Assembly (NCBI GenBank): GCA_030427805.1
Contig: JAUICP010000001.1
Span: 930,001-994,000, forward strand
Length of the DNA: 64,000 nt
DNA from: Bdellovibrionia bacterium
GTDB taxonomy: Bacteria; Bdellovibrionota; Bdellovibrionia; Bdellovibrionales; JAGQZY01
Direction: 5' to 3'
Made by a program: the position numbers and the translations under genes. Under the pieces are notes generated by a model. That model ran no database searches and was not told the origin of the DNA. It saw only the letters and a program-made list of their open reading frames with translations. Positions 14,249 to 26,202 of this stretch are shown here, piece after piece; positions within the stretch are counted from its first letter, which is position 1; every line of letters starts with the position of its first letter.

Positions 14249-14776
14249 ATGGAAAAGCAATGGTATATCGTAAACTGCCAAACAAATTGTGAAAATACCG
14301 CAAAGGCAGCGATTGAAGAGCGAATTAAATCAAAAGGGATGGAAGATTTCTTTGGTGATATTGTTATCCCTTCGGAAAATGTTGTTGAATTGGTAAAAGG
14401 TCAAAAGACAACACGCTCGCGTAAATTCTTTCCCGGATATATTTTCGTAAATATGATCATGCAGGAAGATACTTGGCATTTGGTGCGAGGCTCTTCTAAA
14501 GTAACGGGTTTTATTGGTGGTCAAAAACCACAACCTGTTCCCGAGCACGAAGTCACTCGAGTTAACCAACAAATGGAAGAGGGTGCTGAGAAGCCAAGAC
14601 CGAAAATCTCTTTTGAGCTTGGTGAAAGTGTTACGGTTATTGATGGACCTTTTTCTAATTTCAATGGAACTATTGAAGAGATCAATGAGGAAAAGGCGAA
14701 AGTAAAAGTGCTTGTAAGTATTTTTGGTCGACCAACTCCTGTAGAGCTTGATTATATTCAGGTGGAAAAGTCATAA
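14249..14776 (+). CDS. nusG: transcription termination/antitermination factor NusG
   Basis: NusG binds RNA polymerase, suppresses pausing and links it to Rho or the ribosome. The 175-residue protein has the NGN domain ([11 protein letters not shown] at the start, [12 protein letters not shown] near 55) and a C-terminal KOW domain ([14 protein letters not shown]). The length is typical. It is followed within 30 nt by a strong terminator, so the usual nusG-rplK link is broken here. Confidence 0.98.
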
Positions 14777-14804
14777 GTATTTCTGCCATTTCAAGATTAA
14801 AAAA

Positions 14805-14830
14805 AACGAGCCGAGAGCTCGTTTTTTTTT
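14805..14830 (+). terminator. strong rho-independent terminator after nusG
   Basis: AACGAGC (14805-14811) pairs with GCTCGTT (14817-14823), and the stem runs into nine or more Ts. An A run precedes the stem, so it could also work in reverse. Confidence 0.9.
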
Positions 14831-15057
14831 GTCCCGGGCTCGGGGAATAAGATCTTCGTAAGTAGCCCCATTTATTAGCCAATTTCGATTTTAGCCGCAA
14901 AACTGTCTATTTCCCAAGATTGAGCCGCAATTCGAACCCAAATCATCAATTACCAGTTAAAGGGGTGAATTTAGGACCCTTTGACCCCCATTTTTGCGGC
15001 CAATTTTGGCTTCGATCGTGCATTATTTTCAGGCGTTATAACAAAGGTAATTGAGAA

Positions 15058-16932
15058 GTGGTGTTTCCCTTAATGAGGCTGAAAAGGCTGAGTATTTTAA
15101 TCCTGGTGTTTTCACTTTTTATCCCCGTATCCTATGCGGGAGATGATGACATCAACCACCTGGAAGTTTTGTATCCCTTAGTGGATGAAGCCCCTTTAGT
15201 ACGCCACGATCTTTTTATCGATTTCGTGTACACCAATGTTTACACGCAAAACCCCAGGGAAGTTTCTCGCACTACTTTTTATCGTCTTTCGATCGAATTA
15301 TTGAGTAGCCTTTATACTGAGGTTCGCGGATTATCTGTCGATGAGTCGACCGAAGACCTTCAAGAGTACCTATTACAAATATATTCCCAACCATCCATGG
15401 CGGTAGCTCTCGTTGACATACTTGCAGGCCTATTGCAAGAGGTTCACGAAAATAAACCAACAGGTTTAATGGCTAGATTGGCGAGTCGCTCTCAAGGTGA
15501 ATCCGCAATAAAAATCCTTGTGAAAGAAAAATTGAATCAACTCATTTCGAGAGCGCAGTCCTTCGAAGGTCGCCTAAGAGTCAGCCGTCCTCAATCCTAT
15601 AGCTATGAAGAAATTTTTCAAAGCCTTGTGCCGATCTTTTCATCTTCGACTGGTCAAGCTGGGGTATCCGGTCTTGATTTTTACGATGGCTTCGAAGGTG
15701 TCGAGGCCGAACTCACAAGTTTAGAGAATCTTTTATCAGGTGATTTTGATGTCGCTCAGTTGCAGGCCTACCGAGGTTTATCTTTCCGAATTAACGATAT
15801 GGCCCAGGTGATAAGCCAAGGCTTAGATAATCTACAAACAGTTGGCGCACTCTATGAGGTCGAAAGGCGAATACAATCTTTCGATGCCAGTCGTTACGAA
15901 ACATCTCGCAGTTCTGAACACTGTCTTAAGCAGGCAAAAGGAGTCAGGGATTTTTTGAGTGCCTTGCGGTTAGATCGTATTCCGATGGTCCAACAGGTGA
16001 CGGTTTACAGTGAAAAGCTAGAGCAAATTAATGAAAAGTTAAAACTCATTGAGAGGGTTCGCTCGCGAATCGTTGAGGTAGTTACAAATAGGAGCCTTCG
16101 CCCCGGCGAACTTGAAGAGATCAATTCTGTTCTTTACTACTTGATACGAAACTTAACTTCTTTAAAAGAAATATACCAAGACTCGATTCAAAGAATGGAA
16201 GATTTACTGCCAAAGGTTGCGGTCCTCGAGGCGGAGCTGGGAGCATTAGCTACGGAGCTCGAGCATCGGTCTCGAAATTTCGATCCAGTGGCCCATTCTC
16301 CTGAAAGTACCAGGTTCATTCAAAGATTAATTGAGTCTTTGCAAAGAGACGAAACTGAAGAGGTCGAAACCTTAACGGCAGATGAAATCAACCGTAGATG
16401 GCTTCTCGATATTTATTTCGCTCGAAAAAAGGACGCCAGACTCGATAGTCATGGGGCTCTTAGGATAATCGTTCTTAACAACTACAGAAGCGAAGAATTG
16501 CGCAGGGATCTCGTCGGAAAATTGCGCCATGTGATTACAGGAAACTCCTTAATTTATTTTCGATCCTACATTGAACTCTTCCCCGAGGACTACTCTTCTA
16601 TTCTTGATATTATTAATCGGCGGATGCCGACCGAAAGTGATCAAAGGTTTAATATGGAGGGGCAGATTGTCCAGTCGCTCATGCAGTTTGTTGCAGCCCT
16701 TTACAATAAATATAGAACTGTTCCGCAGCACTTCGTTGGACTCCAAAGGGCTCGAGAACGCTTATCCGTAAGCCGCAGATTTAAAAAGTTTCCTGGAACG
16801 GCGGGGAATGCCTCGGGCTTTTATCTCGATGAACTATTGTTAAAACGATTTCAGTCAGAACCTCAGCCAAAGCTGACTTGCGAATATCATATCCTTCTTC
16901 TTTCAGGACAACCTTCCGGAGAAAATCCATGA
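15058..16932 (+). CDS. exported helical protein, partner gene of the giant protein
   Basis: This is a 624-residue protein with a GTG start at 15058; an ATG at 15073 is an alternative. The signal peptide has a basic start (RLKRLS), a hydrophobic core and the likely cleavage site PVSYA/GDDD. The mature chain is almost entirely helical, with several coiled-coil-like stretches (for example residues 310-410), two internal cysteines and no obvious catalytic motif. It is coupled to the giant gene by an ATGA overlap, so the two products are made together and may form a complex. I do not recognise the family. It starts a transcription unit inserted between nusG and rplK. Confidence 0.75.
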   Translation: MVFPLMRLKRLSILILVFSLFIPVSYAGDDDINHLEVLYPLVDEAPLVRHDLFIDFVYTNVYTQNPREVSRTTFYRLSIELLSSLYTEVRGLSVDESTEDLQEYLLQIYSQPSMAVALVDILAGLLQEVHENKPTGLMARLASRSQGESAIKILVKEKLNQLISRAQSFEGRLRVSRPQSYSYEEIFQSLVPIFSSSTGQAGVSGLDFYDGFEGVEAELTSLENLLSGDFDVAQLQAYRGLSFRINDMAQVISQGLDNLQTVGALYEVERRIQSFDASRYETSRSSEHCLKQAKGVRDFLSALRLDRIPMVQQVTVYSEKLEQINEKLKLIERVRSRIVEVVTNRSLRPGELEEINSVLYYLIRNLTSLKEIYQDSIQRMEDLLPKVAVLEAELGALATELEHRSRNFDPVAHSPESTRFIQRLIESLQRDETEEVETLTADEINRRWLLDIYFARKKDARLDSHGALRIIVLNNYRSEELRRDLVGKLRHVITGNSLIYFRSYIELFPEDYSSILDIINRRMPTESDQRFNMEGQIVQSLMQFVAALYNKYRTVPQHFVGLQRARERLSVSRRFKKFPGTAGNASGFYLDELLLKRFQSEPQPKLTCEYHILLLSGQPSGENP

Positions 16933-19900
16933 GATTTACGTTTGTAAAATTATTAATTCTTTCACTCCTTGTTTGCTCAACGGCTTCATCCCAAGATCGA
17001 TCAGATATTGGTAGTCTTGTTGGAAGTTTTGAGAATCTCCTCAGGGAGCAGAATGGCGAGGAAGCTCCCACTGGAACTGATAGTGAAGTCGATGCCCAAG
17101 GTGATGTTGCAGAAGGAGATCCCCTTGAGGTTGAAGAGGGTACCACGGGTGAAGTTGTTTCGAATGCAGAGATGACTCCCGATGAAGCCACCGGAGTATT
17201 ATCGGGAGCCGTCGAAGATTTTCTAGAACCCTTAGCCGATGGAGCCGTCGCAATTAATGCTGTAACGCCGGCCATGACTCGAGAGGCACTCAAAGAGGCA
17301 TCGGGTCTTTCAGTTGAGTCTGTTATAGATTCTCAGGTGGTTATAGATTCGCGAATTATTCCTTTACTTCTAATGTTTCGCTCAACAGAAGCTTTTAAAC
17401 GAAAAACCCATGAAATCTTGCAGAAGGCCTATTCGGCGGGTGATTTACAAAAAATTGTTGTCCGATTTAATGGTTCACCTGTTCCAAAGGTTCAAGGTAA
17501 GCGCATTGATCAAAATGTAGTAAGAAAACAAAAAATCAAAGCTCTCGAAGAGGCAAGGCGTGGAAGTAGAAGCCCTGCTCCAGGGGCCGGTGAATCGGGT
17601 CTTGAGCGAAGCCAAAGGGAGCAAATCAAAGCTCTTAAAGAAGAGTTGAAGGCCTTTGAAATCGAAGGCGGTCACCAACCGGATTACCTTTATCAAGTAG
17701 ACATCTCCGCGGGGATCATGGCCTTTATTGAAAAAGAAGACCAATATGCCGCAGTTCTTTATTTAGCTCTCGCTATGGAGAATCCGGCAACTTTTGGAGC
17801 CTTACGTGATGAGCGCATCAAATCGTTTTTGGATAATCTTCAGTCCTACAAAAGCAAAGGCCCTGAAGAGCAAGAGCAATTGCGAATCTCGATCAGTGTC
17901 ATGGAAAGACTCGTGAATGCCGGCTACCAACCCATGGCTCTGGCCCGTATTGAAACTGATATTTACGATTGGATTCGCGACAACATCGTTCGCAAAAGAG
18001 GCTATGGTGCCGCAAGACGAATTCTTCCTAAGAGTATCGACAGTATTTTGGCGGATCCGACTCGTTCACTTCGTGTTGAAGTGATGAATGCCTTTAACAA
18101 TCAGTACCTCAGAGTCGAGCGCGATATGTCGCAGATTACCAGTCGAGAGTTTGGGCCAGAGATGAAAGCCTTTGTTCGAGCTAACCAGGTCTATGTCAGA
18201 CCGATTTACTCTAAATGGCTGACCTATTCATCTCCGGTGGTACTAACAAGTGGTGTTGGTGGTGCTGGAGCGACAGTATTTTTTGGTGCAGAAACTGTCA
18301 TGGGAGGAATCGTCGCTGCAGTTTCCTCAGCAGCCTCTGGAGTTGGATCGGCTGGCTCAGCCGTTGGTGGTTTTTTAACGACGACTGCTGGGACCCTTGG
18401 TGAACTCGTCGTATCAACTGGAGTTCTAGAACTCGGTGGAACTGCCGTTGCTACTGGTGGCTACGTTTTAGCAGCGACTGCTGGTGCCGGTGTATTGGCC
18501 GTTATTTGGAAAAGTCGTGATGCAATTATTGATAGTTTAACTTCCGTTCGAATGCCGAGGTTGCGCTCACTCCGTTCAGAAAACCGTTCGCGAATTGAAG
18601 GGCCGAGAAGTAGTCCTGGGTCGGGAACGGAAAGTTATACTCCTCGTGAAGAATGGAATCGTCCTACAGAAGAGGGTGATCGATCTCAAAGTATGCCAGC
18701 AGTGATTACCGAAGAAGGACCTGGCTTTGGACAAAGAATGGGTCATGCTCTTGTGGCGACAGGTCGAGCAGGTACGGATATCACCTTTGATATAGCTCGA
18801 AAAATAAGGAGTGGAGCGAATATTACAATCCTTGGTATTGGTGCCCTTGGAGTGGGCGGATTTCAATTAGCTAATCGCGCTCAAAGAGGGGTTCGAGTAG
18901 GACTCTGGAGTTCGGCCGTCTGGGTTAAAGATATTAGTGTAGCTGGCTACAAAGTCGGTGAAGGTCTGGTGATCGGCACGGGGCGAGCCGGACAAAAATT
19001 CGGTATTGCCTTGGCCGATGCCGCCGAAAGGCGAAGAAATCGATTGCGCGATCGGGTCGAACGTTATCGACGTTCTAAGCTTGAAAGAAGATATATGAAA
19101 AACCTCATATCATCAGGTGAGGTCAACCCATTAGAGATCTCAAATCTTCTCTTTACTACCGGCGGACTGTTAACGAGTGACGATCCTGATAGTGCACCGG
19201 TTCTCGCCAATGAAACAGTCAGTGATGGTAATGGAACGGGAACGGCTCTTGTTCCAGTTTCGGAGCAAAATACAGATTTGGCCAGGCTTTCAAACAGTCG
19301 ATTCTCATCTTCAAGTTTATTGAGTTTCTATAATCAACTTCTCGACAAACTTATTGATTCAATTGAGTCCTATGACGACCTTTCTAAAGAAGACCTAGTC
19401 GATATACTGACTCGAGCGAATCTGCACGGTAATTCCGACCACACTCTACTCGATAAAGAAATCTACCAGGAAAAGCTCTTGCGCCTACGTGATGTTGTCG
19501 CGGCTAAGCACCCGGAGTTAGTGAGCGAGGGAACAACTTCGCTTCCGATCCTTAGAGAAGGAAGTAAATTAAAAGAGATTTATGCAGCGGTTGAGTCTGA
19601 AAATATTGAAGCCTACTTAGATCTACGTCCGTATATGATTCATAAATCTATGGGAGCGACCAAGGAGCGATTTGATACGGCCCTTTATGAAAAGATCGTT
19701 CACGAGGCCTTAAAAGCAGACCTTGATGAGGCCTACAGAAGAAGAGTTGTGGAACTCGCTAAAGAGCTCATTAATTCGAGAGTGGGTGGCGGAAGACTGG
19801 CTGGAGTTAATTTTAGAAGACGATTAGCAAAATTTTTAAGTGAAGATGAGATGGTGACTTTCTTACTCAATGATAATCTCTTTGATAGATCAACGCTTTC

Positions 19901-22900
19901 TCACACGGTGAGTTTGCGCAATAACCTGGCAAATACCTTATTGCGACGAAGAGGGTCTTACTCGGCTGTACAAACCTATTTGAATGAGACTATTGCCCCA
20001 AGGGGAGTTCGGGTTTCAGGTCTTCTTACGGACGTAACTCGCGTCAACTCAACATCTCGCTTGCAAACATTGCAAGATCTAGAGACTTTTCTCAATTTGC
20101 GCGCCAACAATAGATATTCAAGTATTCCTCTATCGGTAAGAAAGCAAATTCTCCGAATTGTTATAGAAAATTCAAATGACATATCTGAGGAGCAAATTGC
20201 TCAGGTGAGTACGAGTCTGTCTATCGAGTTAGACAATCGAGACGATAATACAAAGATCGATTTAGAGTATAAGTCTTTGCTGCTCACTTATTACACTACC
20301 TTTAAAGATAGGTTTAACGATTCAGATAAAGCTCTAAGGCCTGAGGCTTCGTCTGTCGGCAGAGTCTCAGGTAATGAACTTGGTTTTTTAATGAATGCGA
20401 TATTTTCGCCAGAGGCTGAAGTGGGTCGAGACATGATCGAGTACCTTGGAACTCTAGGCAATATGAATGCCGAGCCAATTATGATCGAAGCACTCAGTTC
20501 AAGAGGAGATGCCATTTTGGATTGGCTGACGACTCCTGGTCTTGAGATGGCGACTCGTAGGAAATATATGGGGTACTATATTTCTTGGTATGATACAAAA
20601 AAAGAAGGAGCCCTTAATCGAGGACACTTGATCAGTAGAAACGCATTGGCAAGAAGTTATGGCAAACTGAGTTTTCCCCAGCGCTTTAGCTTTTTTGCCA
20701 TCTACAAGTCTATGTTAGCTCAAACTTCGAATGGCAGCGGCTCTCTTACAAATAGGTGGTTTGCTCCCTATAAAAATGAGACCACAATTGTGACTCGAAT
20801 GATCACCTACCTTTTTGCCGAGCAAAGAGACCTTATTCAGGCTATTGAACTCTTTGAGCAAGAGTTTCATCCAAGGTCCGTTTATTTGGATGATTATGCC
20901 AACCCAATTGCAGTTTACCTGAGAAACCATCCCGGGCGATTGGCATCCAAAGAAAATCTAGATGCCTTTTACTCTCTGTTTGATCACGAACGCAGAATCG
21001 ATCATAACCAGGCTGAAATCGCTCTATCTACGGTTCTCTTGGCTATGACCAATCCCAATAATTCTTGGATTCGCGATGAATTCCAAACCCAGGACGAAGA
21101 AAGAATTGGAAGCCTTTTAATGGATATCTCACGGCTTCTAATTGTTGCACGCAGGGAGCCTACGAGTTGGTATATCGATAAACCAGAAGGTCGCATTCAA
21201 ATGAAGGCCCTATACGAAATACTCATTTATGAGGGGAATCGAACGGGTTTTGCTGATTTAGTCGAAAGTAGCACCGATAGAAACTTTGTTATTGTCCGAA
21301 CAGCTGTAAAGATTCAGGAGCTCAAAACCCAATTTGACCCTGTTAAGTTTATCGAAGTTATGCTTCAGCTCAAAGATATGGAAAGAAAATCCCTAATGGC
21401 TGAATTGTTCACACTCTATGGGAGTCCATTTTCGCGACATATTTTTAGCGATGTGGCGACAAGTGAGCAGAGAACGCGATTTTTCGAAATTTTAGATAAA
21501 TTAGTCAATGGAACTGAGTTAACCCACGCGAATGTAGAACAAATCGTCACGAAGTCACTTAATAATGAACAGCGAGCGATTTGGAGTTCACTCAAAGAAA
21601 CCTATGGATTTAAAGAAGTGGAGCGACCATGGTGGGCTCTTTTTGGACTCGAAAGTGAGCTTAATAAGCGTGAACGTGAAATTCGAAGAGCTCTCAACTT
21701 TCAAAACTCTGTGTCTGATGTCGTCGCTTATACAGAAGTCCTCAAGGGGCGCGGAGCTCGACTGGATCAGTTCGCCGAATCATTTCACAACCTGATGATT
21801 GTGCGGCCGGAACTTTTTCGCACCTACGAAGATGTCATGCTCTTTCTTGAGCAAGATAGCTTTTGGCCAGAGATGAGGCTGAGTTCTTGGGACGAGAGAA
21901 AGTATCCCCTCGAAGCACCTCTGGCTCGATTGATTAAAGCAAAACAACAAAACCCTCGGGCTAACCCAGGTTCTTGGAAGTACAAGCCGGCTTTTTCTGA
22001 GCGTGCGCAAAATATGTTGATCCGTCAGCTCGAAGAAAAGGGCATGTATCCCGAAGAATTTGAAGCTAAGAAAAAACTATGGATTGCTTTAACCAATCGT
22101 GGAGTGACCACGGTGAGCGATCGCATTCTTAATGAACTTAAAAATGAAGCCCCCTCAGCGGGACAACGAGATGAATTGCTCGCTTTTGCCGTCGGTGAAG
22201 ATCGAATTTTTGATAAAGCCAGTAAAGAGGCATGGGCCATTGGTCGGGTGGTACAGTCTGCGGCATTCAAGGCGATGATTCCAAATGGAAGTCTGTTTGA
22301 ACGCTTTATGGATGGAGACCGCGGAGTTCTCGATCAGATGGTTTCGCAGTACAATAGTGTGGTCACCAATCTTGATGAACGTATGAAGCACATTCGAGCC
22401 GTCGTAGAAATGCTCCAACAAGAGCTGCCTGAGCGTGGAATTGCCTATGAGGAATTTCTTGAGAAATTTTCAGTGGCCATCAATAGTAACGAAGAAGAAA
22501 GTGCCTATATCAACCAAGAAAAATTCCCCATTGCCGAGCGGTCTCGAACCACAGAAGACTATGTAGAAGATGCTACCGAAGGTGGAAAAGATGCGAGTTC
22601 TACTTCAGACAAAGATATACAAGCCTTTTATAAAATTACTGAATCAATTCGAAATTGGTCCGAAGAAGAGCAATACCAGTTTATTCGCTACATTCGCGGT
22701 GAGCGCGAAGAGCCCACTGAGTTTTTAGCAGAACACTTTCCTAATGTTGGAGCTGAGCGTTTACGCTATATTTATCAGGAACTTCCTCAGCAGTATAAAG
22801 TCGGGATCATGAGTATGTTCATGCGAGTTACATTTATTCGCTACTCAAGTACCGATGTTACTAAAGGTATGCCCAAGCGAATTATCGACGATATCGTAGG

Positions 22901-24563
22901 CACCGGTGATGACCCATCAACCTTAGTGACAAGAGCTCTTTTGATGGCTGGTTTTGTAGCCCTCAAGAACGCCGACATGCAAGACAATGTGGCCTTTATT
23001 TTCGGGCAAATTCTAGCTCTCGAAAAAGGTCGCAAGGGTAGTATCGGTGAGACATTAAGAATTGTTCTCCAACACGGGTTTAAGGCTCTAGGAGATAAGA
23101 TCGCGCAACAGATTGTTGCCATGGGAATTCTTAGCGAAGAAGATACGATTGCCCTGCAAATGTCTCAAGACGAAGTGGGAATTCTCGACCGAGAAGATTC
23201 CTATAAAGAGTTACGACGAATTCTCGTAGAAGAAGGTCCATTCGATGCCCTTCCTTTTGAATTACTCGATACTGTCGGTGGAGCTTCGATGAAGTGGGCC
23301 ACGCGAAGTCTTATGACCTCTGGCGATGAAAAGGTATTGAGTATCCTCAAGGTAAAAAGGCGCCACGCCTTTTACGATACGGCCAATCGTTATCGAGTTC
23401 TCGATTATATGGTGAACTACCTTATCGATAATTATGGAGTTGAATACACCATCCTTCGTCCGATCATCGAAAGTGCCATGCGCGGAGTTGAAAGAGAAGG
23501 AGACTTTAACCTCGAAGCGCAAAACTCCCGTCGAGCCAAAGAGTTTATTTATATTAATCTCGATGATCCTCGATCCGTTGTTTATGTGCCGGACGAGCAG
23601 GTTCTTCCGGGTAGTGACGATCAGATTATGGTTTCTCAATTTGCCGAGGGAACTTCTTTTAAGAAAGTGCCTTCCAGTTTGAAACCTGTTGTGGCAAGAA
23701 AACTTCTCGAGATGGAAGCTTCGATTCTATTTGCCGATGCCGATGAGATTACTTTCGATCCCGATCGCCACGGCGGTAACTACCGCATTTGGATTAAAGA
23801 GGGTTCCAACGAGATTCTTTTAGAGCCCATTGAATACGGTATTATCGATCACGGTCAGCATATTACGATGACTCGCGAGCAAAGGCAGAAGGTCTTTGAC
23901 CTAATGGCATTGTCTGGAATCTATTATGCTTCGGGCCCCAACGCCTGGTGGGACGCTAAAGTTGCAGAAATTTTCAATATGGATGCAGTGACGAAGAAGC
24001 GCTTTGAAAAGCTCATCAGAAAATATCTAGCCGGTAAAAAGCTTCCGAAGGAACTCGCTTACCATCAGTTGATTTCTGCGGTCTACATGTCTGGTTATGA
24101 CCCGAAAGAAGTGAAAGCCAATGACGGTACGGATGGCCTGCAGTCGAGCATTGAATTTAGCGATATTTACCTGGATCTACCACGAGCCGTAATCCAGATG
24201 AAGCAGTACGAAGCTTTTGCACCTGCCGGGGTCGCAAAGCCAAGCGATTTACTTCTCGCAGCGGCCCAGCAGAGTGGTGCTCGCTATCTTGACGAATATA
24301 TAGAGCACCATAGAACACAAGTTGGCCTCTATAATATGGCCGGTCGAGCACGCAGCCTTTTCTCAAGTGAAAACTTTGTTCCCTTGCGCGAAGGAATGGA
24401 TCTCAATGAGTTACGGGACCTTTCCTACGAAATGAACAATTCTGTGTTTTCGAGTGATGCTTCCGAGGCAGCCAATCTGCAACCCGCGACGGTTCGCACC
24501 AGTTGTGAGGACCTCTTCTTTGATTGGAGACCAGCGATTCAAACGGAAGCTTCAGCAAACTAG
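16929..24563 (+). CDS. giant exported protein (2544 aa) with C-terminal ABC1/UbiB-like kinase fold
   Basis: The start is ATG 16929, overlapping the stop of the previous gene, and it opens a clean signal peptide ending near STASS. Layout by residue: an acidic linker 30-110; a helical/coiled-coil region 120-430; a Gly/Ala/Ser/Val-rich hydrophobic block 432-525; a second hydrophobic patch near 625-680 followed by a very basic stretch near 700; a long helical region 720-2040 without a recognised family; and an ABC1/UbiB-like module about 2040-2320. The module keeps a K-I-A-Q motif (K2057) for KxGQ, a GGAS loop, Lys2141 in LKVKR, E2196 in DFNLEAQN, the DRHGGN loop (D2279, N2284) for DPHPGN, and D2307 in IDHG for DFG. 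UbiB-family proteins are atypical kinases or ATPases. A signal peptide on one is unexpected. The substrate and the side of the membrane are unknown. Confidence 0.8.
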   Translation: MRFTFVKLLILSLLVCSTASSQDRSDIGSLVGSFENLLREQNGEEAPTGTDSEVDAQGDVAEGDPLEVEEGTTGEVVSNAEMTPDEATGVLSGAVEDFLEPLADGAVAINAVTPAMTREALKEASGLSVESVIDSQVVIDSRIIPLLLMFRSTEAFKRKTHEILQKAYSAGDLQKIVVRFNGSPVPKVQGKRIDQNVVRKQKIKALEEARRGSRSPAPGAGESGLERSQREQIKALKEELKAFEIEGGHQPDYLYQVDISAGIMAFIEKEDQYAAVLYLALAMENPATFGALRDERIKSFLDNLQSYKSKGPEEQEQLRISISVMERLVNAGYQPMALARIETDIYDWIRDNIVRKRGYGAARRILPKSIDSILADPTRSLRVEVMNAFNNQYLRVERDMSQITSREFGPEMKAFVRANQVYVRPIYSKWLTYSSPVVLTSGVGGAGATVFFGAETVMGGIVAAVSSAASGVGSAGSAVGGFLTTTAGTLGELVVSTGVLELGGTAVATGGYVLAATAGAGVLAVIWKSRDAIIDSLTSVRMPRLRSLRSENRSRIEGPRSSPGSGTESYTPREEWNRPTEEGDRSQSMPAVITEEGPGFGQRMGHALVATGRAGTDITFDIARKIRSGANITILGIGALGVGGFQLANRAQRGVRVGLWSSAVWVKDISVAGYKVGEGLVIGTGRAGQKFGIALADAAERRRNRLRDRVERYRRSKLERRYMKNLISSGEVNPLEISNLLFTTGGLLTSDDPDSAPVLANETVSDGNGTGTALVPVSEQNTDLARLSNSRFSSSSLLSFYNQLLDKLIDSIESYDDLSKEDLVDILTRANLHGNSDHTLLDKEIYQEKLLRLRDVVAAKHPELVSEGTTSLPILREGSKLKEIYAAVESENIEAYLDLRPYMIHKSMGATKERFDTALYEKIVHEALKADLDEAYRRRVVELAKELINSRVGGGRLAGVNFRRRLAKFLSEDEMVTFLLNDNLFDRSTLSHTVSLRNNLANTLLRRRGSYSAVQTYLNETIAPRGVRVSGLLTDVTRVNSTSRLQTLQDLETFLNLRANNRYSSIPLSVRKQILRIVIENSNDISEEQIAQVSTSLSIELDNRDDNTKIDLEYKSLLLTYYTTFKDRFNDSDKALRPEASSVGRVSGNELGFLMNAIFSPEAEVGRDMIEYLGTLGNMNAEPIMIEALSSRGDAILDWLTTPGLEMATRRKYMGYYISWYDTKKEGALNRGHLISRNALARSYGKLSFPQRFSFFAIYKSMLAQTSNGSGSLTNRWFAPYKNETTIVTRMITYLFAEQRDLIQAIELFEQEFHPRSVYLDDYANPIAVYLRNHPGRLASKENLDAFYSLFDHERRIDHNQAEIALSTVLLAMTNPNNSWIRDEFQTQDEERIGSLLMDISRLLIVARREPTSWYIDKPEGRIQMKALYEILIYEGNRTGFADLVESSTDRNFVIVRTAVKIQELKTQFDPVKFIEVMLQLKDMERKSLMAELFTLYGSPFSRHIFSDVATSEQRTRFFEILDKLVNGTELTHANVEQIVTKSLNNEQRAIWSSLKETYGFKEVERPWWALFGLESELNKREREIRRALNFQNSVSDVVAYTEVLKGRGARLDQFAESFHNLMIVRPELFRTYEDVMLFLEQDSFWPEMRLSSWDERKYPLEAPLARLIKAKQQNPRANPGSWKYKPAFSERAQNMLIRQLEEKGMYPEEFEAKKKLWIALTNRGVTTVSDRILNELKNEAPSAGQRDELLAFAVGEDRIFDKASKEAWAIGRVVQSAAFKAMIPNGSLFERFMDGDRGVLDQMVSQYNSVVTNLDERMKHIRAVVEMLQQELPERGIAYEEFLEKFSVAINSNEEESAYINQEKFPIAERSRTTEDYVEDATEGGKDASSTSDKDIQAFYKITESIRNWSEEEQYQFIRYIRGEREEPTEFLAEHFPNVGAERLRYIYQELPQQYKVGIMSMFMRVTFIRYSSTDVTKGMPKRIIDDIVGTGDDPSTLVTRALLMAGFVALKNADMQDNVAFIFGQILALEKGRKGSIGETLRIVLQHGFKALGDKIAQQIVAMGILSEEDTIALQMSQDEVGILDREDSYKELRRILVEEGPFDALPFELLDTVGGASMKWATRSLMTSGDEKVLSILKVKRRHAFYDTANRYRVLDYMVNYLIDNYGVEYTILRPIIESAMRGVEREGDFNLEAQNSRRAKEFIYINLDDPRSVVYVPDEQVLPGSDDQIMVSQFAEGTSFKKVPSSLKPVVARKLLEMEASILFADADEITFDPDRHGGNYRIWIKEGSNEILLEPIEYGIIDHGQHITMTREQRQKVFDLMALSGIYYASGPNAWWDAKVAEIFNMDAVTKKRFEKLIRKYLAGKKLPKELAYHQLISAVYMSGYDPKEVKANDGTDGLQSSIEFSDIYLDLPRAVIQMKQYEAFAPAGVAKPSDLLLAAAQQSGARYLDEYIEHHRTQVGLYNMAGRARSLFSSENFVPLREGMDLNELRDLSYEMNNSVFSSDASEAANLQPATVRTSCEDLFFDWRPAIQTEASAN

Positions 24564-24708
24564 ATATTCCGAAAACGAGTTTCAATTTTGCAAACGAGTG
24601 ACACCAGCGATTGAGCCCTGAACTGATATGAATTCGGGGCTTTATATCTCATGGCCTGGGTCATTAGGAACTAGCATCATAGTTTTCTCTATGGATTCAA
24701 GGCTCAAT

Positions 24709-24736
24709 TTGACTAATGCTAAAAAAGCGTTAAGGT
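24709..24736 (+). promoter_or_regulatory. possible promoter of the Cys-rich secreted protein gene
   Basis: TTGACT (24709-24714) and TAAGGT (24731-24736) are 16 bp apart. They lie 29 bp upstream of the GTG start at 24765. The -10 match is weak. Confidence 0.35.
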
Positions 24737-24764
24737 TCTAGCCCTCACCACTTTAGGGGGTATC

Positions 24765-25517
24765 GTGAAAAAGTTTTTGATGTTTTTATTCGTCCTTAGT
24801 TTAAGTCCGTTGGCCCAAGCCACAGAAACCCATGACTTTGATTTTGACTCGTGTCCGTCCATTTACTGGAAGTCCAAAGCATTTAGTTGTGCAACTCTTG
24901 AGATTGTAATTCCCGAGAATTTAAGCCCGGACCTTTCACAGAAGAACATTAAAACAACGGTGAGTGATGGTTACGCTCTATTTATTACTGATGCACTTCC
25001 CCATGCGGATACAGTTTTTAGAACCGTTAGAATTGTCGATATCTATAATGGTCTCATTTTTAATTTCTCCTCTGTTTTTGAAACTGATGAGTACAAAAAT
25101 AAAACCGCCAATCTCTACCCGAGACGGGGTGGTGATTGGGGAATCAGCGTCTTTCGCCTGAACGCCGATATCAAAAACCAGGCTGACTATGAGAGTTGCC
25201 TTTCCTCTCTGGGTAAAGATGGGTGTTCCCAACGTTGGGCTGAGGTGGAGCCATTTCTCGATTATATGACTTTTCCACTCTCTCCAGATGATTATCAACT
25301 TTGTCATATGTTTCCGGAGCAGTCTGTGAACCATCGTGGCAACCCTCTTGTGATTTACGAGGAGCTCTCTCGCCAAGTCACTGAAATCTATGGGAATGTG
25401 AAAGATATTAAGATGGGTTCACCCTTGAATTCAGAAGAATTCGATGTGGACTTGGGAGACCTCATTAAGTCGTTTATCCCCGACTCTAAGCACGTATTTC
25501 GCTGCGGGCAGAATTAA
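24765..25517 (+). CDS. secreted Cys-containing protein of unknown function
   Basis: This is a 250-residue protein with a GTG start and AGGGGG 4 nt upstream. The signal peptide is MKKFLMFLFVLSLSPLAQA. The mature part has six cysteines (in DSCPS, FSCATLE, SCLSSLGKDGC, LCHMF and RCGQN), which suggests disulfides and a periplasmic or extracellular location. It has a mixed alpha/beta appearance and no recognised domain. It lies between the giant-protein operon and rplK and is followed by a strong hairpin terminator, so it is probably its own transcription unit. Confidence 0.75.
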   Translation: MKKFLMFLFVLSLSPLAQATETHDFDFDSCPSIYWKSKAFSCATLEIVIPENLSPDLSQKNIKTTVSDGYALFITDALPHADTVFRTVRIVDIYNGLIFNFSSVFETDEYKNKTANLYPRRGGDWGISVFRLNADIKNQADYESCLSSLGKDGCSQRWAEVEPFLDYMTFPLSPDDYQLCHMFPEQSVNHRGNPLVIYEELSRQVTEIYGNVKDIKMGSPLNSEEFDVDLGDLIKSFIPDSKHVFRCGQN

Positions 25518-25612
25518 TAGGAATAGTGGGGCTTTTTCCAGTTCAAAAGGCCCTTGAAAACCCATGGTTTGGTGTAAAATATTCAAACTATTGAGTCATT
25601 GAAGAATTGAGT

Positions 25613-25660
25613 AAAGGCTGCAAAGGCACTCCAGGAGACCTCTTCGCAGCCTTTTTCTTT
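25613..25660 (+). terminator. hairpin terminator upstream of rplK
   Basis: AAAGGCTGC (25613-25621) pairs perfectly with GCAGCCTTT (25646-25654) and is followed by TTCTTTT. The 24-nt loop holds a small internal CTCC/GGAG pairing. It most likely ends the upstream gene and insulates rplK. It would be an attenuator only if a promoter lies before it. Confidence 0.75.
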
Positions 25661-25695
25661 TCTAAATATTAGTAGATAAATCCTCTATTTAGCCC

Positions 25696-25723
25696 TTGCA
25701 AATGCCAGGGCGATCGGTTAAAA
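25696..25723 (+). promoter_or_regulatory. possible rplK operon promoter
   Basis: TTGCAA (25696-25701) and TTAAAA (25718-25723) have a 16-bp spacer. They lie 53 bp before the rplK ATG and after the hairpin terminator. The match is moderate and judged by eye. Confidence 0.4.
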
Positions 25724-25776
25724 ACGCGAGTTCTGTAAATTATTAACAATCTGTGTTGTCACAGGAGTGGGAAATT

Positions 25777-26202
25777 ATGGCAAAAAAAGTAACTGGAATG
25801 ATCAAGTTACAGATACCGGCAGGGAAGGCTAATCCAGCACCTCCCGTTGGACCGGCGCTCGGACAGCATGGGGTCAACATTATGGAGTTTTGTAAGCAGT
25901 TTAATGCTAAAACTCAAAAAGCTGGTGATACCGTAATACCAGTGATCATTACTGTTTATCAGGATCGCTCTTTTACGTTTATCACGAAGACCCCTCCGAC
26001 GTCTGTTCTCATCAAACAATCTCTTAAACTCAAATCAGGATCTAAGATGCCTCAGAAAGATAAGGTAGCGAAGATCAAGATGGATGAGATCAAGAAGATT
26101 GCTGAAACTAAACTACCGGATCTGAACTGTTTAGGTGTTGAATCAGCAATGAACCAAGTCATCGGTACATGCAAAAGCATGGGCATCGATGTGGTCGAGT
26201 AG
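25777..26202 (+). CDS. rplK: 50S ribosomal protein L11
   Basis: L11 forms the GTPase-associated stalk base with 23S rRNA. The 141-residue product starting at ATG 25777 ([12 protein letters not shown]) matches the family length; the upstream GTG-type extension is not needed. The Pro-rich motif [19 protein letters not shown] is diagnostic. AGGAG at 25763-25767 overlaps a small hairpin (CTGTG 25751-25755 with CACAG 25760-25764), which could modulate initiation. rplA follows after 9 nt. Confidence 0.98.

Follow-up and report, generated by a model that had tools for sequence, protein, structure and literature searches.

Bacterial kinases of the UbiB/COQ8 type are normally intracellular, where ATP is, and the mitochondrial intermembrane space is topologically like the periplasm. 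In yeast Cqd1 the UbiB domain faces that intermembrane space, an ATP-binding residue is required and the protein links both mitochondrial membranes (PMC10214851), a caveat to the view of the earlier note on this DNA that known family members are cytosolic or organellar. Fusions are also on record: PMC1262709 describes Usp-ABC1 in Nitrosomonas and RIO1-ABC1 in Thermoplasma, which likewise join ABC1 to another domain but differ in partner and architecture from the protein described here, and among the ABC1 fusions in the passages covered there is no mention of M48. Our subject is a 2544-aa protein encoded in the window (the whole 64,000-nucleotide stretch of a Bdellovibrionia contig that was analysed). 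It shares with COQ8A/ADCK3 and UbiB/AarF the fold, the KxGQ extension, the A339-equivalent Ala of the Ala-type loop, the ExD motif, the alpha-C Glu, DxHxGN and DxG, but its domain stands at the end of an apparently exported, M48-bearing chain and its loop has a Lys where G55 would be. Amongst solved structures the best profile relatives of its family are the mycobacterial ABC1 proteins Rv3197 and MSMEG_1954, whose solved constructs are about 440-450 aa long and which, unlike the giant protein, have no M48 fusion. With Cqd1 it would share a UbiB domain placed between two membranes, outside the ATP-making compartment, although Cqd1 is mitochondrial, has one membrane segment and lacks a protease domain.

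The giant gene starts at an ATG that overlaps the stop codon of the upstream gene (ATGA, at 16929), and as it begins there and is 2544 aa long, the residue numbers given earlier are exact. From N- to C-terminus the protein consists of a putative signal peptide, a degenerate M48 domain, hydrophobic stretches, a long helical middle and a UbiB-type kinase domain (Table 1).

Table 1 Features of the giant gene and its neighbours, in window positions.
Feature	Position	Strand	Basis
Upstream coupled gene, 624 aa, signal-peptide-like start	15058..16932	+	weak relative upstream of the L053 giant gene
Giant gene, 2544 aa	16929..24563	+	frame, Pfam, profile and hydropathy evidence
Signal-peptide-like N-terminal stretch, residues 1-22	16929..16994	+	hydropathy only
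Degenerate M48 peptidase domain, residues 95-425	17211..18203	+	alignment, model, structure matches, profile
Hydrophobic stretches 447-465, 508-526 and 630-648, possible membrane segments	18267..18872	+	hydropathy
Conserved helical region preceding the kinase, residues 1626-1957, family-specific	21804..22799	+	alignments
ABC1/UbiB kinase-like domain, residues 1958-2451	22800..24281	+	Pfam, profile, AlphaFold model, structure matches
KIAQ, the KxGQ motif (K2057, Q2060)	23097..23108	+	alignment; aligns with KxGQ of PDB ABC1 chains
GGASMK loop, where UbiB has AAASIG	23277..23294	+	alignment
K2141, beta-3 (VAIK) lysine	23349..23351	+	alignment
ExD motif (E2190, D2192) and alpha-C Glu (E2196)	23496..23516	+	alignment
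DRHGGN catalytic loop (D2279, N2284)	23763..23780	+	profile, alignment
IDHG, DFG counterpart (D2307)	23844..23855	+	profile, alignment
C-terminal cysteine C2526	24504..24506	+	near the end in most M48-UbiB family members
Downstream gene, 250 aa, signal-peptide-like start	24765..25517	+	no relative found outside the genus

The C-terminal domain is a true UbiB/ABC1-family kinase-like domain: Pfam, the family profile, the predicted structure and conservation agree, and the module that had been claimed at the end of the protein is confirmed. PF03109 (ABC1) scores 27.2 bits against the whole 2544-aa protein (cut-off 22.9) and 30.7 bits against the kinase region by itself, and is matched individually by 18 of the 22 family kinase domains. 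A relative at 99% identity to the C-terminal region was found by sequence search, and the C-terminal 561 aa, used as query, led to a near-identical copy in a sister genome and to three distant relatives. As a single-sequence PDB search returned nothing relevant, profiles were used: alignment A4, with 22 kinase domains, was run against all PDB sequences and matched Rv3197 of M. tuberculosis (8e-21), MSMEG_1954, COQ8B and COQ8A (1.3e-12) from the KxGQ motif through to DFG, whilst the first protein after the ABC1/UbiB chains reached only 0.024. The AlphaFold model of the domain (pLDDT 84.8, pTM 0.83) had COQ8A as its top Foldseek match, and a second structure aligner ranked ABC1/UbiB entries in all of its top eleven PDB places (333 residues aligned with COQ8A, at Z 20.6), followed by RIO kinases at Z about 13. 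The profile search and structure prediction that the earlier note had proposed therefore show a protein-kinase-like fold with D2279, N2284 and D2307 aligned. The span first assigned to the module, 23040-23950, covers its core, whilst the folded domain extends from 22800 to 24281.

At the N-terminus lies the domain that defines the family. Pfam Peptidase_M48 with HExxH was found near the N-terminus in two of the first relatives, iterated profiles extended the M48 homology to nearly all members having an intact N-terminus, and PF01435 is matched by 16 of 20 family N-termini. Amongst solved structures the family M48 profile matches 3c37 best (8.7e-29), then the periplasmic BepA of E. coli (3.8e-17), and the giant protein itself matches it at 2.2e-56, a value obtained with its own sequence contained in the profile. 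A model of its M48 domain (pLDDT 75) resembles BepA (Z 14.0) and 3c37 (Z 13.0), the following match standing at 7.0. The stretch that should carry HExxH reads LALAMENPA against LAHEMTHMNPA in the alignment, the third-ligand Glu is replaced by Gln, and all zinc ligands are missing; alignment and model together indicate a pseudo-M48 domain in which the protease is dead. BepA and 3c37 have the M48 fold and an N-terminal export signal, and most relatives in the family share their HExxH and ExxxD, but neither protein has a kinase domain. HExxH is intact in 16 homologous open frames and absent from all four of the largest members with a complete N-terminus (the giant protein, L053, L056 and L060), as well as from L016 and L070.

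Between two sister genomes, the kinase domain shows dN 0.0035 and dS 0.289 (ratio about 0.012), the M48-like part 0.040 and 0.438 (0.09), the upstream partner gene 0.067 and 0.607 (0.11), and nusG 0.0024 and 0.159 (0.015). A ratio as low as that of nusG shows very strong purifying constraint on the kinase domain, and the giant gene is live and no decaying remnant. Residues 1600-1950 of the helical middle are 98.9% identical between the sister genomes, and a profile search with this middle found no PDB relative.

A profile of four sequences from this C-terminal search (A3), run over 369 Bdellovibrionota genomes, gave 29 matches in 27 of them, and the open frames that hold them measure 1086-3350 aa in nearly every case. 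M48 and UbiB stand together in at least 29 single open frames from at least 25 of the 369 genomes, lower bounds obtained by matching the results of both profiles by contig and frame length. Canonical UbiB frames among the matches listed measure about 430-630 aa, so the fusion proteins and canonical UbiB are distinct populations, the latter being separate genes in the same genome. The homologue search suggested by the earlier note thus found relatives with a C-terminal UbiB domain across Bdellovibrionota, most of them with M48. That note had described a giant exported protein with a partner: giant size and C-terminal UbiB domain stand, whilst the defining M48 domain and the phylum-wide family had been missed. 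An apparently exported M48-UbiB fusion family spans Bdellovibrionota, and the giant gene is its giant variant with a dead protease. No NCBIfam model matches the giant protein and none reaches its cut-off for the relatives; no UbiB-M48 fusion was found in the open-licence PMC literature, which weakly suggests novelty, and a search there for Bdellovibrio with M48 gave unrelated mentions only.

The genome with the giant gene also has canonical UbiB copies at other loci: of its nine PF03109 matches, two are UbiB proteins of canonical length and most others cover the catalytic-loop part only, likely as cross-hits of other kinases. The same genome also encodes a 1274-aa, apparently exported protein (L018:5627-9448) with a divergent ABC1-like C-terminus (FHADLQPAN, IDWG) and no M48 domain, which is more divergent and was not counted with the family; its gene adjoins a TgpA-like transglutaminase gene. 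Most M48-UbiB family members have a single Cys about 3-20 residues before the stop, and a near-terminal Cys also occurs in both neighbours of the giant gene and in the L053 partner. Such a C-terminal Cys might signal sorting or attachment.

The reading we put forward, with about an even chance of being right, is that of an exported fusion whose N-terminal signal would carry it across the inner membrane, followed in the chain by the BepA-like M48 domain (a zinc protease in most relatives), the helical middle and the UbiB domain. In the periplasm, or in a prey-derived compartment, the UbiB domain would most likely bind nucleotide and probably also a membrane lipid, like COQ8 and Cqd1, and its nucleotide state would gate the activity of the remaining chain. 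In most relatives this gating would govern substrate access to the protease, and in the giant protein with its dead protease a scaffold or client-binding role. Two points count against the exported reading: the periplasm is not known to contain ATP, and the hydrophobic stretches of the giant protein could put its C-terminus inside. The conservation of the partner gene is too narrow for a fixed complex.

The motifs bear on whether such a domain would turn over nucleotide. K2057, the GGAS loop, K2141, E2196, D2279, N2284 and D2307 each align where the earlier note had placed them; its list did not include ExD, a UbiB hallmark (defined in PMC4718504), which in the giant protein is E2190-G-D2192. 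The KIAQ motif has Ala where KxGQ has Gly, and its Q is invariant in the 25 covering family rows. In the GGAS loop (residues 2117-2120), the first two residues of the Ala-rich loop have become Gly whilst A2119, the equivalent of ADCK3 A339, is retained. This position is naturally Gly in 11 of 25 family rows, and in ADCK3 the A339G change brings Gly back and enables autophosphorylation (PMC4718504). All members with Gly there (GSGS, GAGS) are without the beta-3 Lys, and those with Ala often retain it. In the catalytic loop D, H and G are invariant among covering members and N is present in all but one. Many relatives have no beta-3 Lys, and in some the Lys of KxGQ or the Gly of DFG is gone, so part of the family may be catalytically dead. 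These losses, together with the ATP expected to be missing outside the cytoplasm, favour an exported pseudokinase, in which the UbiB fold would be retained for ligand binding or scaffolding without phosphotransfer or ATPase activity. We take this as a serious possibility that we nevertheless lean against: the giant protein has lost none of the catalytic and motif residues of UbiB, and the catalytic Asp, the Asn and the metal Asp, for which a pure scaffold would have no need, are kept in nearly all family members.

The lysine itself appears in two places. The PKA Gly55 position, which our own loop alignment suggests to be that of WNK1 K233, has Gly or Ala in UbiB proteins but Lys in 16 of 25 family rows. 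Nine of those 16 members lack the beta-3 Lys, and among members with neither lysine three have Arg at beta-3. The giant protein carries both, K2122 at the WNK1 K233 position and K2141 at beta-3. In WNK1 the catalytic lysine, K233, is in the beta-2/G-loop region (PMC1821047, PMC4718504). A kinase-domain tree places the giant protein in a clade of six (support 99/99), four members of which have both lysines and two (L053 and L029) the beta-2 Lys only; the lysine labels require five changes overall. The pattern fits the hypothesis that the catalytic lysine may be gradually relocating from beta-3 to beta-2. That periplasmic UbiB-M48 fusions throughout the phylum would be active outside the cytoplasm whilst their ATP-binding Lys passes from beta-3 to a WNK-like beta-2 position, with the giant protein and three close relatives that carry both lysines as the intermediate, we consider unlikely as a whole.

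A signal-peptide-like start is present in almost every member whose N-terminus is complete, and a strong second hydrophobic stretch is lacking in most, both judged by hydropathy only. As most homologues lack strong internal membrane segments, the UbiB-type kinase domain itself is likely exported, less certainly so in the giant protein. In the giant protein and its close relatives one to three hydrophobic stretches follow the M48 part: two or three in the giant protein, between residues 447 and 648, and two each in L016, L017 and L053, those of L016 and L017 having positively charged flanks. With two membrane stretches the chain would end up outside again, as in the other members, but not with one or three. 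An odd number would make a receptor-like protein, its M48 part periplasmic and its UbiB domain cytoplasmic with normal ATP, a reading to which the stretches after the M48 part and the charged flanks lend some weight and under which the ATP problem would disappear. We find it rather doubtful, since most homologues share both domains without a comparable internal segment, and the paired stretches of L016, L017 and L053 would bring the chain back out.

The gene called a partner does adjoin the giant gene but is no general feature, its sole recognisable relative outside the genus lying upstream of the L053 giant gene. That relative (L053:2837-5047) encodes a 737-aa, apparently exported protein weakly like the partner (E 6e-8, in a single comparison), and directly downstream follows the 2100-aa giant homologue (L053:5004-11303), so the pairing may predate the genus. 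For the downstream 250-aa gene no relative was found outside the genus, and a search for a conserved operon found none beyond the genus except this one weak upstream relative. The giant gene and its two neighbours (15058-25517) lie between nusG and rplK (window 14249-26199). This junction measures ~90-225 bp in four genomes from other families of the order (L079-L082) and holds insertions of ~2.0-2.5 kb, with different genes each, in three other genomes of the same family (L076-L078). Within a cluster that is normally fixed, the nusG-rplK junction is a hot spot for insertions.

The fusion family is patchily distributed: it occurs in 10 of the order's 66 genera, and g16, the one best sampled, gave no match at E 1e-15. 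With this patchiness, and with no sharing of neighbouring genes between genomes, horizontal spread or frequent loss would fit. Patchiness would also suit large, apparently exported effectors in a phylum that includes predators of bacteria, delivered into the ATP-containing interior of bacterial prey or of a host cell, where M48 would be a partner activity; we hold this to be improbable, as only a Sec-type start and no further secretion signal was seen, and as the gap in g16 speaks against it. A chance or generic kinase resemblance of a region outside the UbiB family, to which the modest single-sequence Pfam score and the fruitless single-sequence PDB search might point, is ruled out for practical purposes by the family-profile search, in which ABC1/UbiB chains run far ahead of every other kinase, by the structure ranking and by the UbiB-only KxGQ extension and ExD motif.

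For the exported, nucleotide-gated fusion, the most natural guess at a function, by analogy with the location of Cqd1, its need for ATP binding and its linking of membranes, would be that it takes part in contacts between the inner and outer membranes, or in lipid traffic, within the bacterial envelope. One chain joins an M48 protease and a UbiB-type domain, both types tied to membrane or envelope upkeep, and the UbiB family has here innovated by protease fusion, apparent export and a variable ATP-binding lysine. If the UbiB domain works outside the cytoplasm, these proteins would raise the question of which nucleotide serves there, and would allow a direct test of ATP turnover versus ligand binding alone.
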